A stretch of 64,000 nt of DNA from Hyaloraphidium curvatum (Eukaryota; Monoblepharomycota; Hyaloraphidiomycetes; Hyaloraphidiales; Hyaloraphidiaceae): assembly GCA_025558095.1 (NCBI GenBank), contig JAIVFI010000009.1, positions 372,001 to 436,000 on the forward strand, given 5' to 3'. Position numbers and translations under genes: made by a program. Each line of letters opens with the position of its first letter. Position 1 is the stretch's first letter. The notes beneath the pieces were generated by a model, which saw only the letters and a program-made list of their open reading frames with translations, did no database searches and was not told the DNA's origin. Positions 2,787-27,922 of this stretch are shown here, one piece after another.

Positions 2787-5327
2787 ATGCCCCCTCGGCT
2801 CCCCCGAGGGCCGGGACGACCAACGCGACATGATTTTGGGATACCCTTGCAGCGAAGCCCCGCGGCTCTGGGACGTCGGTGTCCCCCGGCGTCGCCAAAC
2901 ACGGATCCGGGATGTCGGGGGACGAGATCATGGGCCGGTCGCCTCCTCGGGGCCTTATTTGGGAGGTCCACGGACGATACGAGGCCTGCTGGCCAGATTC
3001 CGAGCGGAGGCTCTGCTCCGGTGGATCGGAAAGCGGGTTCCCAACCCCCTCCGCCGGGAGGCGGAGATGAGCCGTGGTGGAAGCCGGCGAGGTCCAAACC
3101 ACGGCGAGGTTCGGAGTCGCCTACTTCCGACTCTGGACAAGGAGGATCCGAGGCCGGTGCGGACGCGAAAAGGCCCGCCGTTACGGTCCCTGCCTTGAAG
3201 CTGGCGACCAAAGCGACAGCGAGAGTTCAACCTGTCGCGGCGGCTGTGACCTCGCACGGGCTACTGGGGAGGAAACGGAAGGCGCATTTGGTTTCGGACA
3301 AGTCGGACGAGTCGTTTTGGGCTTCTGCAATGTCTGGTGACACCGAGATGGGAGCTTTGGAGGGAGAGGACTCGCTCGAAACTGCGGCGCCCGACGACAA
3401 GCGGGACAACGTGGAGGCGATCGATCACACGATGTTGGATTACAGAGGTGCGGAGTGCTGGAGAGTAACGTAACCAGGGCATCTGGAACTTACTGGGCCC
3501 AACAGTCGTCCGCGGGAATGTGGCTGTTCAGGTCGCCCGTCTCCGACCCGGTCTAGACAAGATTCTTTTCAAGTGGGCTGCTGCTTGCCGACTAGGCCCG
3601 CAGATTCCATGCTTAAACGTTTCCCCAATCTAGTCCCGGGGTCCACTACCTCCAGTGCCCGCGCACGGGCGTCTACAACTTCAGCCCCCACCTGAAGAAG
3701 ATTCGCCAGCCGGACGAGTTTGACTTCCGCACGCTGCCTCCGTACCGCACCGCGTCGAAGGACCCGTCGCTGATTGAGATGTCAAAGACGCACGGATCGC
3801 GTTACTGCGGATCCACGTCGTCCATGACGAGCCTGCTCTCCCAGTTCTGCTTCCTCCTTACCCAGCACAAGCCCATCGACACCCGGGATCTGTCTGCAAT
3901 ATTCGAAAGCCAGATCAAGACAATGACGAAGCTCACGCGCGCACCGACGTCTGTGATTGTGAACTGGAAGGACGGCTGCTACGCCATCGACGCCGAAAAA
4001 CCCAACAGCGAAGCGGACGATGACCAGGCTTTCTTTCCGGAGACTGCCGACGACCAATCCAAGGACAATATGATTCTTGCTGCGTTGGTGAGAACCGCGG
4101 CACGGCTTGGCGGACGGCTCGATCGCTGATCAACGTCATGGTTTTGCGCAGGGAAAGATAATGGAGAAGCAGCTCACCCTGCCGGAGGACGAGTTCCGCA
4201 TGCACTTGTTGGGAAACTCCGACGAACTTGTGCGCAACAAGATCTACCAGAAACCCGAAGCATTCCACTTTGCGACGGCGTCCAAGTTCATGCTCCGAGC
4301 CCAGCTCGACTGCTACGACACCCGCCTGCCCAAGGGCTCCTTCGATCTGAAGACGCGTGCTCTTCTGGCTATCCGCATGGACCAGGAGAACTACAGGGTT
4401 CGTGTTGCCCCGCCACTATCGCCGAAACGGTGAGGACTTACGAACGATGCGATACTCTCCAGGACAACCTCGTGTACCGCCTCAAGAAGACCACGGGGCT
4501 GTACGAGTCCTTCGAGCGAGAGTACTACGACATGCTCCGCTCGGCGTTCCTCAAGTACTCGCTCCAGGTCAGGATCGGGAACATGGACGGGATCTTCGTC
4601 TGCTACCACAACACGGACGAGATTTTCGGTTTCCAGTACATCCCTCTGGAGACCATGGACGAGCAGCTTTTCGGAAGCACGTTGCTGGCGGAGCAGACGT
4701 TCCGGAACTCGTTGCTTCTACTCGAGAGACTGCTCGATCGGGCCACCGCGGAGCTCCCGGGGCAGTCCTTCCGCCTGACACTGCACGCAAAAGAGAACCA
4801 GGAGGTGCGTCCAAAAGGTGTTTGCGACGACTTCTCTCATCTCACCGCTGCTTCGATCTCAGCTCCTGGTCGCTTTCGTTCAGTCAATCGACGATCCCGA
4901 CACCATCATGAAGTACTCGCTGGTATCGCGGTCGGCCATCAACGGTATCCGGCAGCGCGGACCTTTCAATTTGACGAAGCCGGATGACAAGTGGACGGTG
5001 TTTTTCAAGATCGAGGACGGCGGGGATACCCGGAGCCCCGCGCAGCGATACCTCTTGCGGGCCGAGTACGAGAAGCTGCGGTCCGACTGCGTCAATCTCA
5101 TGGACAAGGCCGCCATGGCGTCGCGAACCAACAGTGACCACCTGATGAACAGGATTCGGAAGGTGTTCCAGCAGGATGGGGCTGGCCAGGGCCCCACGAA
5201 AGCCTCGGGACCTGTCCAGACACCGGACTGGTACGCCGACTTTGCACCTGGCCCGAGCGAACCCCAAAACCCCGGCGTTGTGCTTCCGTCTCCACCGCGC
5301 ACCAACGCTCCTTCGGCACGGATGTAG
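2787..5327 (+). CDS. PET127: Mitochondrial RNA-processing protein Pet127
   Basis: Six exons (2787-3447, 3506-3572, 3634-4087, 4152-4397, 4463-4804, 4863-5327) sum to 745 codons. The Pet127 core is unmistakable: RPGLDKILFNPGVHYLQ (its Asn codon split by the second intron), PRTGVYNF, YCGSTSSMTSLLSQF, FDLKTRALLAIRMDQENY, ESFEREYYDMLRSAFLKYSL and MDGIFVCYHNTDEIFGFQY. Yeast Pet127 is a mitochondrial inner-membrane-associated protein needed for 5' processing and turnover of mitochondrial RNAs; it has been placed among PD-(D/E)XK-nuclease-like proteins. The first about 220 residues are low-complexity and basic (many Arg, Pro and Ser), fitting a matrix-targeting presequence plus linker, and are not conserved. 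Introns are 58, 61, 64, 65 and 58 nt. The gene starts about 80 bp after the CFAP45 stop, on the same strand. Confidence 0.93.
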
Positions 5328-7318: not shown

Positions 7319-8617
7319 ATGAGCGAAGGCGCCAGGAAGCGCAGGCCGGCCTTCTTTGGCGTTCATGCCGCCGCCGGCGGTGTTTCGTCGACAATTGCTG
7401 CGGCTATCACTTGCCCTCTGGAAGTCGGTGAGGAAGGCGGAGATCCGGCGTCGGACAACTTTGACCTGGACAACGTTGTCACGCGCGTCTGCTGCCATAC
7501 TTGCGCTGCCGCACGGACCAATCAGTGAAAACTCGTCAGCAGGTGGGCACGTTCCGGCATCGCTTCTGCGGGGAAGATCTGACTCCCTTGGCGGAAAACC
7601 CCAGTCGTCCATTTGGGCTCATTTGCGCAAGCACGAGGGGCCGAAAACTCTTTCCGAACGTTTGGTCGGGCCGTTTCAGACTACTGCGAGGGCTTTGGGA
7701 GAAGTCTATCGCAAGGAAGGACTGCGAGCGCTGTGGAAGGGGCTCGGACCGAACCTTGTTGGCGTGATCCCCGCGCGTTCGATCTATTTCGGCGTCTACG
7801 GCAAGGTGAAGCACACCTTGGCGGAACGGCATGGCCGAGAATGGTCTTGGATCCACATGGTGTCTGCGGCGACAGCCGGAGCAACCAGCGCGACGTTGAC
7901 GAGCCCCATATGGTTTGTCCTACAACCATCGCGGGTGTTGCGTCGCCTAACGGACTTCCTAGGCTTATCAAGACGCGAATGCAGTTGCAGTCGGACGCTG
8001 CCGGTCCAGATGGGGTCGCTCATCGGAAATACCGCAACAGCTGGCATTGCCTCCAGATGGTTCTGAAGGAAGAAGGTGTGCGGGGCCTGTACAAGGGCCT
8101 GTCCGCTTCATATCTCGGAATTGCGGAGAGCACGATCCAGTTCGTGACGTACGAGTGGCTCAAGGCGAAATTGCGGGAGCGTCGCATAGGGTACGCGGAT
8201 CCGACCCCGGGCATCCACGAGAAAACATTCGAAGGCAGGCTGAAGCGGATGCCAAATGGGGGCGAGCGCAGTTTGACCGCGCCGTTCTTCAGATTGGATG
8301 GAATCTTTCCTGACGGCTGCGTCCGCAAAGCTCTTCGCGGCGAGCGTGACATATCCACACGAGGTCATTCGGACGCGATTACGGGAGGCGCCGGTCGACG
8401 GAGGCCGGTCGAAGTACACGGGGATCGTGCAGTGCGCCAAACTGATCTACAAAGAGGAGGGGTTCGGCGCGCTCTACGGCGGCATGGCGACGCACCTCAT
8501 CCGGGTCGTGCCGAACGCCAGCATCATGTTCTTGATCTACGAGGTTTGCGAGCGTACGCTGCCTTTCTGTGCCCGGCTAACGTTCACGCCCAGGTCATCG
8601 TCTACACATTCTCCTAG
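7319..8617 (+). CDS. RIM2: Mitochondrial pyrimidine-nucleotide carrier, RIM2 / SLC25A33-36 type
   Basis: Exons 7319-7427, 7526-7542, 7605-7912, 7963-8180, 8293-8543 and 8594-8617 give 308 residues. Three carrier repeats are visible, with the signature P-x-[DE]-x-x-[KR] in each: CPLEVVKTRQQ, SPIWLIKTRMQ and YPHEVIRTRLRE. The W-for-D in repeat 2 is typical of the pyrimidine-nucleotide and NAD/folate carrier group. EGLRALWKGLGPNLVGVIPA and GLYKGLSASYLGIAESTIQ are RIM2-like. The family imports pyrimidine nucleotides into mitochondria for DNA and RNA synthesis. The second exon is only 17 nt. The donor ending exon 4 is uncertain: GT at 8181 keeps frame, whereas the GT at 8191 does not. The short last exon encodes VIVYTFS, matching the family C-terminal end. 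Confidence 0.9.
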
Positions 8618-8784
8618 CCACAGCATAGGCCGCGGCGCTCAGATGATACCACAATTACCTGGGGGAAAAGGATTGCAGAGGGCTGGCACGGCACCAGCTT
8701 TTGATTTGATTATGCTGTGTCGCTCATTAGATGTAAATGGCGAATGGACGGACCGTTGGCGCGGGCTCTTTTTGGGGTTTTGCG

Positions 8785-9935
8785 CTATGATTTGTTCGAC
8801 ATGCCGTTTGGTGTTACCCCGCCGCCGTTTCCGTCCAAGATCAGCTGCGCGAGGCTTAGACTCGCGTTGTTGATAACCGAGGAAGAGTTCGCGTTGGCTC
8901 CTGCCGTCGACGCCGCGCCCGACGACCCGCCCAGGCCGTAGAGCATCCCCAAGAACCGTTCGTCCGCAATCTTATCCTCGAAAAAGGTTTGCCGCATTTT
9001 GAAGAACGTCTTCGACGTCAGCAATGCGTCGCTCCCCGCCTGATGTTGCGGCCCTATCCGCTGGACCTGCAGACATCTTGAGCGTGAGAAACGACAAGAG
9101 AGCGCAACAACCGACCTGCAAGTCATCTGCCACCTCCTGAAGACCTCCCTTGAGCGTCTTACAGCTCTTCATAAGGTACTTGATGTCGTAGATACAGGGG
9201 AAGTAGGTTTTCAGGAGCTCGAAGAAGTCTGCCTCTTCGGCGGGGAGGGGGGAGCAGGTAAGGAGTTTGAGGAGGTACCCAAAATCGTAGCCACTGGGAG
9301 CCGGTTTGTTCAAACACCCCACAGACAGATGATGCTGTTAAGCCACGCACCTGTGGAAAGAAATCCACTTGACGTCGTCCATGAGCACCAATCCCGAGCT
9401 CATAAGGAGCTCGCCAAAGTGTTCGACATCAATCCCGTAATCTTCGTGCTTCTTGAAGTCCAAGCCCGACTTCTGCAAAAGCTCGATCGAATCCTGCGCG
9501 TACATGTCGTCCCTGCGGGAAAGAAACGCGTCAGAAGCGTACCCGCCCTCGAAAGGAGGACGTACTGCAGACTGAACTTGAAGTTGAACTGCCACGTGTT
9601 TGTGCCCGGCGGCAACCGTCCATCTTCGTCGGAAAAAGTGAGCCCCAGTTGGATTAACCGCAGCAGATCCACATTGCAGCGGAGGGTCTGGTAGTGGTAA
9701 TCCGCCGAAGTCTTGAAGTTCCCGATTGGTCGAGCGACGACGCCCGGGAATTCCGTGTCCTGGGCGAGGACCTCCTTCAGAATCGCGATGCCACCAAGGC
9801 AGTCGCGTCCCGGCGACATACCATCGCGACGTAGGGATATCGCTCGACCAGGTCCCGCAGGGTCACGAAGGCCTCCTCCACGTTGCTCTCCCACACCTCC
9901 ACAATCTCCGGTCCATTGGAGCTATTGCCGCTCAT
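8785..9935 (-). CDS. POP2: CCR4-NOT deadenylase subunit CAF1/POP2 (CNOT7-like)
   Basis: Exons (minus) 9935-9822, 9759-9566, 9512-9351, 9293-9116 and 9066-8785 give 309 residues. It is a DEDD-family ribonuclease. The catalytic DTE of motif I is in [13 protein letters not shown], interrupted by intron 1 just before the Asp. [20 protein letters not shown] and [14 protein letters not shown] follow, then [20 protein letters not shown], and [15 protein letters not shown] carries the terminal His/Asp motif. Intact catalytic residues argue for an active 3'-5' poly(A) exonuclease, unlike the altered site of S. cerevisiae Pop2. The tail after LYGLGG is Ser/Ala/Gly/Asn-rich and not conserved. Introns are 62, 53, 57 and 49 nt. 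The N-terminus is short, without the long Gln-rich extension of budding yeast. Confidence 0.95.
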
Positions 9936-20975: not shown

Positions 20976-23681
20976 ATGGGCCTCGCGGGGGCGCCCGCAC
21001 CGTCCGCGCCCAAGCTGGACAACGCGCAGCTGGCCCCGTTCAAGTGCACAGAGGTCCAGGTGCGCGACAGGAAGCTGTCGAGGGTCACGTGCTATTTCGA
21101 TGTCGACGATCCCGGTATGCGGGGAAGCCCGGCATGGAGGCGCGGGCTCACGCCGCGTCCGCGGCCCAGGCACCCTGAGATCAAGCACGCAGTTCAAGCT
21201 GGTGCTGGAGGGCATCGGGCCAGATGGCAAGCGGGGGAAGTATTCTCTCGGGGTGGGCCTGCCGGCGGGTTCCTATGGAGCCTTCGCCTGACGACCGCAA
21301 AGCTCGACGACATCAAGAACGTCTCGGGGAGCAAGGAGACCAACAGACTGGTCGTCGCCTTTGACAGCGACAAACCGGCCGTGACCATGTGCTTGGAGGA
21401 ATCCGATGTGGACCGGAAGGAAGGGCTTAGGGGCACGCTCAAGATGATCCGTTCTCTCGGGGGTGGGCACCTCGGGCCGCTGCCCGGCACGACCGGCCGC
21501 TGATCTCGCGACCAGGAAAATCCTCTGGCGGCTCGCGGCCCCATTCGTCACCCCCGCCCGTGGGTCATCCGGGATCGGCTGCTGTGGAAGACGACCTCTT
21601 TTCGGTAGCTGCCCCGGACACCAAGAAGCGCAAGATCGAGGCGCTCGGCGCGAGGTACGACGCGCCGCGGAAATCGACTGGCGGTGGCAGCAAGGCGAAA
21701 AGCATCCTCACCGCCGGGTACAACCCGACGGATCGCTTGAAGGCACCCGAGGAGAAACGCGGCTTCCCGAGCAGCTACGAGTCTCCCATCGTGGGTCGAC
21801 CCGGGCCGCAGAGGACAATCGCCGAGCTCATCGTGTTCCCCGCCAGCCCAAGTTCGTCATGTCTTCGTCCCCGCCTCCCTCCCCAACCCGCCGGTCCCTT
21901 GCCGAACGCAGACCCGACTCGGGCGTGCGGTCCGGCCAGAGCAGCCCCCATCTGGCCACGATCGGCCCTTCTTCCTTCTACACATCGTCGTCGCGGAAAC
22001 GCGAACGGGAGCACTTTTTCATGCCCGGAATGAGCAACAAGGAGAACGTGGCTTTGCACCAGAGGATGATGGCATCTTCGGGGACCAAGCGCGACGGGTG
22101 AGAAGCCCCGTTCGGTCATGCACCTCCGCGCCGAGCTAAAGCTTGTTGCCGCCAAGCTTCCGCAACCAGGGGCAGACCTGCTACCTCAACGCCGTGCTCC
22201 AGCTGCTTTACCACCTCACACGCTTCAAGACCACCCTCCTCCGATCCTCGGACGACGTCGCCAGGAGCGCCGCGGACGGCGGCTACGACGAGGACAAGGT
22301 GGCCAGTTTCCGGAGCTCGGTGGGCGAGTCCCTCGCACACGTCTTCCGGAGCAAGCAGGGCAAGGACGTCGTCGACCCGGTGGCCCTAAAGAGGTGCATA
22401 GGCAGCATCCTCAAGCAGTTTGCCAACAACGACCAGGAGGTGCCCCCCTGTTTGCCGCCGTGTGGCATTGCACCTGACCTTTGTGGCCCCCAGGACGCCC
22501 ACGAGCTGCTTTACGCCCTCTTGGATCAGGTGCAGATGGACTTTGATCCATTCGGCTCGGGCGCGGATCCGGTGGTCAATCCCGTCGCCACCAACTTTGT
22601 CTGGGAGCTGGAGCAGTCCATGAAGTGCCGGGAGTGCGTCTACGAGTCGAGGCGAAGCGAGGTCTTCAACGACCTCTCGCTCGATCTCCCGTCGGAGAAG
22701 GAGATCGTGGGCGGGATCGTGCAGCTCCGCACCCTTCTGGGAAGCTTCTTCCAGGCACGCTCCCCGGGGCAAGACTGTTGCTGCCCTCTGCTGACCAGCC
22801 CCACCGCGCAGGAGGAAACGGTGAGCTACAAGTGCGAACGCTGTGACTGCAAGGAGGCCACCCTGCGGCGGCGCATTGTGCGCCTGCCGCGCTTTTTCCT
22901 CATCCACATCAAGCGCTACGTAGTCGACATGGCGGCGCTGGCGCTCGGGAAGGATGCCGTCGTGCAGAAGCGCGCGGACTTTGTCGGCATCGAAGATGCC
23001 CTGGACTTTTCGAAGTGGTGTGCCGAAGGGGTGCATCAACCGCCCCCTGATGCCGGCGAGAAGGGCGGCAGCACGGTGGACACGGACGCGCCGGCGGTGT
23101 CGTCTTTGTTTGCGGGCACGACGAAGGACGATCGGGGGGAGGCCGCAGACGAAGCTCCCCGGGGCTCGGACGCCGACTTTTGGGAGGCCGACTCGGACGT
23201 CTTGGATCCCTCCAAGCTGAACGAGGACGAGCAAATGCAGTGGGGTGGGTGGCTTTGCTTCGTGCCCGCGGACCCCTGGCAGCCCTGACAACTCCAATCA
23301 TCCAGCCCTTCGGGCAAGCTTGAAATACTCGTCGGAAGCGCCTTCATCCGACAACGGCGTCATCGAGCTCGACTCGGATGGGGACCATGGCGTATCAGCT
23401 GCCAAGCCAGTCGCATCCCGCCATCGTCGTCGATACCGGCTGCAAGGGTACGCACCAACATCGCCGACATCCCTGCTGTTCCTGACTCTTTCCACAGCGT
23501 CATCAATCACATCGGCTCCAGCTACAACCGCGGCCACTATGTCGCCGACATCCGCGATCCGAAAACTTCGCGGTGGCAGACATTCAACGACGACATGATG
23601 AGCACCCTGGGGTCGTTTGACGCGCTCCGACAAAAGCGCGGACGGTCCGTCTACATTCTCTCTTTCCAATTGACTGACTGA
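20976..23681 (+). CDS. Ubiquitin carboxyl-terminal hydrolase, USP37-like with N-terminal PH-like domain
   Basis: Several short introns split this gene. The N-terminal about 130 residues (LSRVTCYFDVDD, FKLVLEGIGPDGKRGKYSL, LDDIKNVSGSKETNRLVVAF) resemble the PH-like domain of USP26/29/37. A Lys/Ser-rich linker (KKRKIEALGARYDAPRK, SSSRKREREHFF) precedes the catalytic core. The Cys box is GFRNQGQTCYLNAVLQLLYH, then DAHELLYALLDQV, a Cys-pair zinc knuckle (CRECVYESRR, KCERCDCKEA) and FFLIHIKRYVVDM. The His box is VINHIGSSYNRGHYVADIRD, then WQTFNDDMMSTL. Catalytic Cys, His and Asp/Asn are present, so an active deubiquitinase is expected. The last intron is 23448-23497. The 3' exon was partly duplicated downstream. 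Exon joins in 21115-22150 are approximate. Confidence 0.83.
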
Positions 23682-23728
23682 GCGTGTATGCAGCTCAACG
23701 ATTGTTTAGTTACCACCATGATGCAGCG

Positions 23729-23836
23729 CTGTCCTTGGCCTTTCCCCATTTCTCCGCGTGTCCGTTGACGGCTCCGCCGCCTCCGCCCGTGAACCGCGGC
23801 TTTCCGATGTCGAAACCATCGGTACTTGATCATGTG
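23729..23836 (-). pseudogene. Degenerate copy of the RER1 3' end
   Basis: On the minus strand this matches the last about 35 codons of RER1 (from the HMIRYRY region to the Gly-rich tail). It is separated from any upstream RER1 exon and carries small deletions that break the frame soon after HMIKYRW. It is a by-product of the tandem duplication. Confidence 0.8.
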
Positions 23837-24113
23837 CCCGCCATCGTCGTCGATACCGGCCTCAAATGCGCCGACAGCCATTGGCTTCGAGACTTTTCGC
23901 ACAGCGTCATCCATCACATCGGCCTCCAACTTACAACCGCGGCCACTATGTCGCCGACATCCGCGATCGAAAACCTTGGCGATGGTAGACATTCAACGAC
24001 GACATGATGAGCACGCTGAGGTCGCGCTCCGACAAAAGCAGGGGAGGGGAGGAGGGGGGCCGGGGGGTGTCTACGTTCTCGCTTTCCAATGGACTTACTG
24101 AGCGTGTATGCAG
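23837..24113 (+). pseudogene. Degenerate copy of the USP 3' exon
   Basis: It matches the USP C-terminal coding sequence 420 bp upstream, including the His-box codons (GHYVADIRD equivalent). The Trp-Gln codons have become TGG TAG, so there is a nonsense change, and a G-rich expansion occupies 24040-24068. It is detached from the rest of the USP gene. Confidence 0.83.
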
Positions 24114-24177
24114 CTCAACGATTGTTTAGTTACCACCATGACGCAGCAGCGGGTATACAGCCATGGCCACACGGCTC

Positions 24178-24950
24178 CTAGTCCTTGGCCTTCCCCCCTT
24201 TCCCCGCGTGTCCGTTGGCGGCTCCGCCACCTCCGCCCGTGAACCGCGGCTTTCCGAGGTCAAATGGAATGTATCGATACCGAATCATATGCTTGAGCTG
24301 CCGTTTCATCGTGACGTAGAACAGGATGCAGAAGTACAGGACGAGGATCGGCCAAAACACTGGCACGTCGAACACTGGGGGAGCAAAGATTAGTCTCCGC
24401 GGAGTTCACCACACGCCGTGAGTGCCACGCACCGCTGAAGAAGGTGCAGAAAAAGGCAACGAGCACCGCCCGGACGCAGTTGTACCAGTACTTGAACTCC
24501 GGTAGCCGCCGAATGAAGGGCTTGAACTCCTCGCCCGCCTTCATGGGCAGGATGCCCGACGCTCCTTTCCGCGACGGCCCAGCTCCAGGCAGCGACTCGC
24601 CCGAGTCGTCATCGTCCCCTCCCCCAGCGCTGGTGTCCAGCTCGTAAGCGGGGTCGATTTTCGGCGAGAGGAACGCAAGCGTCTGGTTGAGGATGAAAAT
24701 CCCTGGCGGACCGGCTCGGGTTAGGAGACGGCGAAGATGCGAGAGGGTCGCCGCACCCATGGCGTAGGTCACTGGTGGGGAACCCGTGAGCCGAGCCACT
24801 GCGCGGACAAGCAGGCGCGCCTACCTATGTACCACCCCTTTATGAGGAACACCCGGAGGAAGTAGAGCGCCAGGATAACGCCGAATGCGATCCAGCGGCC
24901 CATCCAGTAGGGCGTAACGTCGTCCAGGAACTTTTGGAGCCTCTGTCCGC
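24178..24950 (-). CDS. RER1: Golgi-to-ER retrieval receptor Rer1 (5' end unresolved)
   Basis: On the minus strand the frame gives RLQKFLDDVTPYWMGRWIAF, a first membrane segment, then FLIKGWYI. After an intron come IFILNQTLAFLSPKIDPAYE, FKPFIRRLPEFKYWYNCVRA and, after another intron, FDVPVFWPILVLYFCILFYV and MKRQLKHMIRYRYIPFDLGK. These are the Rer1 signatures. Rer1 is a four-pass membrane protein of early Golgi that retrieves ER proteins and unassembled subunits into COPI vesicles. The cytosolic loop is lengthened by an acidic Gly/Ser insert (GGGDDDDSGESLPGAG) absent from yeast and human Rer1. The C-terminus is Gly/Lys-rich. An acceptor at about 24943 precedes RLQKF; the short N-terminal exon with the start codon was not located. 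Confidence 0.9.
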
Positions 24951-25398
24951 GGTAGGAGCGCCAACATGGCACCGCCGGTTAACCACTGTGAATGAAGTTC
25001 CACGAGCCGAGCCTTCCGCGTCCCGACGCCGCGACTGCCGTCAAGTGCGGGTCGACGCGGGGCCTTCCGCGTCCCGAGCCGGCGGCTGCCGCTGAGCGCG
25101 GGCCGACGCGTGCCGATGTTGACGGGTGCTTCCTCCTCCACCGCCGCCGCGAGCGGACATTTACCATGTTGAATGCCAGTCGGAGCTTTGCCCCGGGAGA
25201 AGGCGGACCGCCCCCGCCGAGGGGATCCGAAGCCATCATCTTGGTCAAGCGGAGAAGGCGTTTGGAGGGCGGCGAGCACCCATACGGGCGCGGGGCCGAC
25301 CCAGCCACCAACAGTAGTCCCCACTCGAGCAAAGCTCTCTGGCCAATTCTCCGGCCGGGAGAGCACCTCGGGGGAATCCAGCAGGGATCTTCGTTCCA
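24951..25398. other. Region between RER1 and DNAI1, holding unresolved RER1 5' exon(s) and a 51-bp repeat pair
   Basis: The start of RER1 and the 5' leader of DNAI1 should both lie here, as the genes are divergent. A very GC-rich 51-bp unit occurs twice in tandem at 25011-25061 and 25062-25112, diverged by several substitutions; its 17-codon period leaves minus-strand frames open. No independent gene is supported. Confidence 0.45.
25011..25112. repeat. Tandem 51-bp repeat, two copies
   Basis: Both copies begin GCCTTCCGCGTCCCGA and end near GGG(T/C)CGACGCG, with scattered differences between them. Confidence 0.7.
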
Positions 25399-27922
25399 AT
25401 GTCTTCGGCAAGGAAGAAGGCGGTGGTCCAGGGGGACGCGGGCAAGGCAAAGACCAGGGCTTCGCACCAGCAGTTGGCCCCGTCGACGGAAAAGGTACGC
25501 CCACGTGCGAGACGCCAACTCGCGGCAGAGACTAACTGATCTCGTCAGAGACGCGTCCCTCCGGGCCAATGGCAGCTTTCCGACAAGGTGGGACCGACCG
25601 GGCACTGGGCCACGGCCGATGCCTCCAACAGCCCAACCCCGTGCAGGAACTGGATGAGGACGTGACCTGCATTCTGAACGCGGACAAGCCGAAGCTGGCG
25701 AGCTGCATGGTGCAGTTTAACCACCTGGAGCGCGTCTTCCGGCCCGTTCCGAGGGCGGAGAATGATCATGGCGAGGTCCACTTCCTGCTGGAAAGGTGCC
25801 CCCGGTCGCGGCTATCCTCCACAAGCGGCTCAGACTATCCCCAGCTACGTAGATTTCTTGGAAGGCCACGCTTCAGCGCCAACTGCAGCTGCAGTCCCGG
25901 TGGTGGAGGGCACGGCCGTCGAGGCGTCGGAGGCCAACACTGAGTCCGAGGGAGGGCGGGCCGACGGCCACGTCCGCCGCGGCAACGAGCACAACTACTT
26001 CAACTTCACCGATCGAGCGGCGCAGACTTTGCACTACGGCACGCGGGTACGCAGCAAGCTTGACCGCAAGATCGCGTCGTTCACGGGTCCCCGCCTGACA
26101 GGATCGTTTCTGCCTCACCGACGCCGTTGAGCTGTGCGAATTCGGGTCCTCGGCCAACCAATGGATCATCCACGACGCATACGAAGGGGAATTGCTAGCA
26201 AAGGAGAAGCAGGCGAAGGAGCGGGACAGGGGAAGGGTGAGCTCTCCCGCCGGACGAGCATCCGACGGTCCTCAGAACCGTTGCAATACTTCAGGTGGCT
26301 GGCAACTCTGCGTCCGATGCCTCATCGCGGCCACAAACAGCAGTCTCCGAGGACGCTCAGCACAGCGGATCCTTGCAGGCTGCGCTCCCGAAGTTCAAAA
26401 TCTTGGAACGCATGGTGAACCAGCCGCTCCACGGCGACATCGACTTCGACTTCCGATACTGGCAGACGCCGCTTCCTTCGGACCCGAATTTGAAAGGTGG
26501 GCTTGTCCTTGTCCGCCGGGCTGCCAACGACGGCCGACCCGGTGCAGATCTCGGTCTTCTCCCGCTGTGGAAGTTCCGAAGCGCGGCCCAGGTTCCGAAC
26601 CAACCCGTCACTGCCGTGTGCTGGAGTTCCAAGTATCCGGACCTGCTGGCAATTGGTTACGGTTCCTTCGATTACCTCGCTCCAACTGCGGGGAAGGCGG
26701 CTTGCTACTCGCTCAAGAACGCCACGAATCCCGAGTACGCTTTCGACGTGCCCAAGGGGGTGACTTCCGTGGCGCTGCACAAAACCGTGGGCAATTCGAA
26801 TGCGGCTCGCCGTGTGTCGGAGCGTCTGAGTGATTCGTTAGCACTCGCATCTCCTCGCTGTCGGTTCATCGGACGGCTCGATCGCCGTGTTTGACATGAG
26901 AGCTCCGCGGGATCCTCCCCTGTGCAGCGCCGATGTGGGCAAGGACAAGACTGTGCATGTGTCCGTTGCACAGGTGAATCGTTGCGAGCCATTGGCCACG
27001 GTGGGTGTGCTAATGGCTTTGACAGGTCCGCTGGCATCCCAAAGACACCCTCACTGGGGAGCCCCGGCTCTACTCGGCCTCGAACAACGGCACCATCCAG
27101 CTCTGGAATCTCACCCGCAACGGCCTTGTCGAGGAAGTGGGTGGCCGCTCAAGCTTGGTTTCGGCCGAGCTGACGTCCTTAACCCAGCATGTCATCGCGC
27201 TGTTCCACGGCACCGCGGACGACGGCAGGCCCACCACGACGGCCACCCAGGGATCGGACATTCACTCCAGCAAAGCCGCCGTCGGCGATGCCGTTCGTTC
27301 CGCAATGACCAGCTGCCTCGATTTGCGGCCGCAGAACAACAGGATCTTCCTCGTGGGAACCGAGGAAGGCTCGATCATCCGTTGCGACCGCGGCTACAAT
27401 AGTCAGCAGCTGGGAACCGTCGAAGCCCACCATCTCGCGGTGAATGCAGTGCACTTCAACCAGCGATGCCCCGTTCTGTTTGCCTCGGCTGGATCCGATT
27501 GGAAGGTTAAGATCTGGAAGGAGGGCGCATCCAAACCATTGCTGGCTTTCGATCTTGGCAGCCCCGTCCTGGACGTCGCCTGGTCGCCGCATCGCGCTTC
27601 GATCCTAGCAGCAGTGACAGGTTCGGGCAAAGTGAGTGCTCAGCCTCGCACCCCCCGAGCCACGCCGATGACGCTCCCAAAGCTCTGCATTTTCGACTTA
27701 CTATCTCGGACAGACAGACCCGTCCTCGAGCAGCAGGTGATCCGAAAGAACCAGCTCACCAAGGTCGCCTTCAATCCGGCTTCCTCGGTTCTCGCCCTAG
27801 GCGACGGACGCGGGCTTGTGTTCACCTTCAAGCTCCCGAACCACCTGCATGAATTTCCCCCGGGGATGGATGCGGACAATGAGTGCGTGCAGATGCTGAA
27901 ATCGTTGCATGTATCGTCGTGA
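25399..27922 (+). CDS. DNAI1: Axonemal outer-arm dynein intermediate chain 1 (DNAI1 / IC78 type)
   Basis: A basic start (MSSARKKAVVQ) is followed by small exons 25549-25587 and 25632-25795, then 25845-26046, 26102-26236 and 26295 onward, all joined by 44-58 nt introns. Dynein intermediate-chain landmarks appear in order: NYFNFTDRAAQT, SSANQWIIHDAYEGELL and FKILERMVNQPLHGD. They continue with GLLPLWKFRS, TAVCWSSKYPDLLAIGYGSF and CYSLKNATNPEYAF. The WD40 C-domain has FLVGTEEGSIIRCDRGYNSQ, EAHHLAVNAVHF, SAGSDWKVKIWKEG and DVAWSPHRASILAAVTGSGK. This chain anchors outer dynein arms to doublet microtubules in motile flagella. A 51-nt stretch at about 26498-26548 looks like a frame-preserving, stop-free intron. 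Exon joins between 26800 and 27100 are approximate. Confidence 0.9.

Follow-up and report, generated by a model that had tools for sequence, protein, structure and literature searches.

Partial tandem gene duplications with a decayed fragment are known as adjacent direct copies whose breakpoints lie inside genes and whose detached part becomes a pseudogene fragment. A second point of reference is given by convergent genes whose 3' UTRs overlap, an arrangement that in Saccharomyces cerevisiae involves over 20% of genes (PMC3900390). The locus described here lies in a window of 64 kb, the whole stretch of DNA that was analysed, and shares the copies, the breakpoints and the fate of the detached part with the first system. 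With the yeast pairs it shares genes that face each other, here with what was probably a very short spacer before the duplication. It is a real but ordinary rearrangement, a partial tandem duplication whose detached parts have decayed, and it does not stand out in this genome.

The duplicated segment is the stretch where two convergent genes, USP (+) and RER1 (-), meet at their 3' ends (Table 1). Comparison of the complete 64-kb window with itself, a check proposed by the earlier sequence-only reading, matched 23417-23814 to 23837-24264 (E = 6e-92) and returned no other self-match that reached 50 bp at E <= 1e-4. The repeat search placed the pieces of the two copies in register, with spacings of 402-450. 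When 23417-23836 (copy A) was aligned with 23837-24293 (copy B) using MAFFT, the alignment ran end to end, and 343 of 400 aligned bases were identical (85.75%), with 27 transitions, 30 transversions (K2P 0.158) and indels no longer than 30 bases. Head to tail, the copies adjoin at 23836/23837 with nothing in between, and their boundaries can be placed within a few bases; similarity fades near 24290, the approximate right end of copy B. The self-match, the in-register pieces and the 86% identity over 400 aligned bases bear out the tandem duplication that had been proposed at 23417-24293, with its right end corrected to about 24290, and the two copies, direct and side by side, fit a partial tandem duplication. 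Elsewhere in the genome neither the segment nor its spacer was found again, so nothing points to a dispersed repeat. No match in the window came from Rfam, and none from phage records.

Table 1 Features of the duplicated junction, in window coordinates.
Feature	Position	Strand	Evidence
Copy A of duplicated segment	23417..23836		Repeat search, self-comparison, MAFFT
Copy B of duplicated segment	23837..24290, right end approximate		Repeat search, self-comparison, MAFFT
Live USP-type deubiquitinase gene, UCH domain part	22158..23681	+	PF00443; stop codon 23679-23681
Live USP last exon, inside copy A, GVINHIGSSYNRGHYVADIRD...YILSFQLTD and stop	23498..23681	+	Translation; PF00443 positions 202-252
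Dead inner RER1 tail	23731..23836	-	Frameshifted, without RER1 stop codon; alignment, three-frame translation
Dead inner USP tail	23837..24101	+	Donor lost, intron shorter by 13 bases, frameshifts, in-frame TAG, G-rich insertion
Live RER1 3' coding end, ...KHMIRYRYIPFDLGKPRFTGGGGGAANGHAGKGGKAKD and stop	24178..24375	-	PF03248 75.4 bits
45-base block, copy A, USP stop and spacer	23677..23721		Identical to 24097-24141
45-base block, copy B	24097..24141		Identical to 23677-23721

Family profiles identified both live genes and their ends. The plus-strand gene is a USP-type deubiquitinase, in which PF00443 extends over 22158-23660 and covers profile positions 3-252 of 254, with 85 bits for the first part and 33.9 bits for the last exon alone. 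On the minus strand lies RER1, of which three exons at the locus match PF03248, and the genome profile search gave no Rer1 match beyond these three. The RER1 3' end lies in copy B, with its stop at 24178-24180. The tails are ordered as live USP, dead RER1, dead USP and live RER1. The live tails match the UCH and Rer1 profiles and the open frames of the inner region match nothing in Pfam, and for want of a match the frames at 23651-23992 (-) and 23684-24007 (+) were rejected as real proteins. Which tails are live and which dead was judged from the reading frames left intact and from the family profiles.

Both inner tails carry disabling lesions, while the ends attached to the gene bodies are intact, which identifies the inner tails as pseudogene fragments. 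In the inner USP tail, the GT splice donor is gone (CTGCAAGGGTACGC vs CTCAAATG in the MAFFT alignment), the last intron is 13 bases shorter, two extra bases follow GGC, TGG CAG of copy A reads TGG TAG in copy B, and a G-rich insertion lies near 24040-24060. The inner RER1 tail encodes HMIKYR and, in a different frame, DIGKPRFTGGGGGAVNGHAEKWGKAKD, and it continues past the RER1 stop site; copy A lacks 30 bases that copy B has at the RER1 stop, which is more simply explained by a deletion in A, though not proven. Mismatches by codon position were 10/7/7 in the USP exon and 4/4/6 in RER1, small counts in which the third position does not strongly predominate, in keeping with changes that accumulated in unconstrained copies. 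The sequence-only reading had proposed the order of the tails, the decay of both inner tails, the stop in the USP copy and the frameshift in the RER1 copy, and the profiles, lesions, alignment and translations support each of these; its account of the USP lesions was incomplete, and the lost splice donor and the 13 missing intron bases are to be added to the TAG.

These results argue strongly for a head-to-tail duplication of the shared 3' junction, after which the outer ends stayed intact and the inner ends decayed. A duplication of about 430-450 bp would have copied the 3' junction of two close convergent genes, the segment being cut on one side towards the end of the USP penultimate exon and on the other within the RER1 coding tail. 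The outer copies, joined to the gene bodies, would have stayed intact, the detached inner copies would have decayed, and each live gene would have received its own copy of a formerly shared 3' spacer. After a tandem duplication with one breakpoint in each gene, only the outer tails remain attached to gene bodies, and the observed tail order therefore needs no further explanation. We infer one single event. The junction sequences contain no long homology, which makes non-homologous joining or template switching the likelier origin. The live stop codons are now 496 bp apart, and before the event their distance was probably 49-76 bp, the spacer lengths in A and B, which supports the earlier view that the duplication moved the genes apart. 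The duplication happened long ago. That it could be dated, as had been suggested, holds only on a relative scale, the coding parts showing about 0.13 mismatches per site.

An assembler can also place two haplotypes in tandem or expand a repeat, and short adjacent duplications are a known type of assembly error. Such an artefact is very improbable here, because the copies have diverged and because precisely the tail cut off from its gene body is broken in each of them, whereas two haplotypes would be expected to carry intact tails each. Very high identity had been named beforehand as the sign of such an error; the copies are about 86% identical and differ by many indels.

A different question is whether the inner region is kept for a function, as private 3'-end signals, as antisense 3' UTR or as an alternative USP last exon. 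The recurring spacer noticed earlier, at a distance of 420 bp, proved to be a block of 45 identical bases that is unchanged between the copies, against differences at roughly 8-14% of sites in the coding parts on its flanks, a figure that shifts with the alignment; the acceptor AG ahead of the inner USP exon is also retained. Were mismatches scattered uniformly, a run of at least 45 identical bases would have a probability of 0.036, or 0.058 counting from 23498 on, and local gene conversion or chance are possible causes of the block, as is its retention as a 3'-end region. When the last intron was taken as the neutral reference, the MAFFT alignment gave 11/37 mismatches in the intron and 4/49 in the spacer (Fisher p = 0.019); other gap costs gave 4/39 to 11/37 in the intron and 1/49 in the spacer, and since the intron divergence varies with gap cost, the contrast is suggestive only. 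The identical block offers a marginal, alignment-dependent hint that each spacer copy may still provide one live gene with its 3' end. An alternative last exon supplying the UCH end is excluded, because the inner exon is frameshifted and contains stops. Predicted folding of the spacers (-7.0 and -9.6 kcal/mol, without a shuffle control) gave nothing to build on and was dropped as a lead. A retained function of the inner region appears unlikely. We hold it similarly doubtful that the spacers are private copies of a formerly shared bidirectional 3'-end signal, with the 45-base signal as the only part selectively kept in both. Under the favoured duplication with decay, each spacer copy would presumably still supply the live gene next to it with a 3' UTR or poly(A) region.

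Local duplication is not rare in this genome (assembly of 31.9 Mb in 55 contigs), which its introns and gene content mark as that of a eukaryote. The same scan was applied to sixteen other 10-kb stretches (160 kb), and 5/16 (L008, L009, L010, L016 and L019) contained direct repeats of 50 bp or more in which less than 1 kb separates the copies, only some of these repeats being strictly head to tail. Several sampled stretches also contained longer or more distant repeats. Two of the five lie on the same contig as the locus: L008, about 53 kb further along, carries about three copies of a 141-base unit at 8552-9001 (94-96% identical), and L009 a direct repeat of about 390 bp (3523-3913 and 4315-4704; 87% identical, 792 bp apart). 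The window had been called repeat-poor, and local duplication is indeed sparse in it, but a second tandem repeat, 51 bp x 2 with copies 78-84% alike, lies at 25011-25110, probably in the first RER1 intron or just upstream of the RER1 coding part. From about 25401 a plus-strand gene runs divergently from RER1, which we take, by its translation only, to be axonemal dynein intermediate chain-like. Pfam gave no match in 26295-26894, the sole fragment of this gene that was scanned. An axonemal dynein intermediate chain-like gene would point to motile flagella.

The locus provides a small, clean example of tightly packed convergent genes being separated with neither gene lost. That the duplication supplied new terminators or antisense 3' UTR, as the sequence-only reading proposed, is possible. 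If the spacer block is a 3'-end signal, the locus would be a natural test of shared versus private terminators; otherwise it is an ordinary genome change. Among the titles and abstracts returned by literature searches, none describes the same geometry. Unlike a partial tandem duplication of one gene, the segment here spans two convergent gene ends, and each copy contains one live and one dead tail, which follows from the geometry and not from a new process. The 49-76 bp spacer suggests that the ancestral transcripts may have overlapped, as in the S. cerevisiae pairs; in contrast to those pairs, the ends here have since been separated by the duplication.
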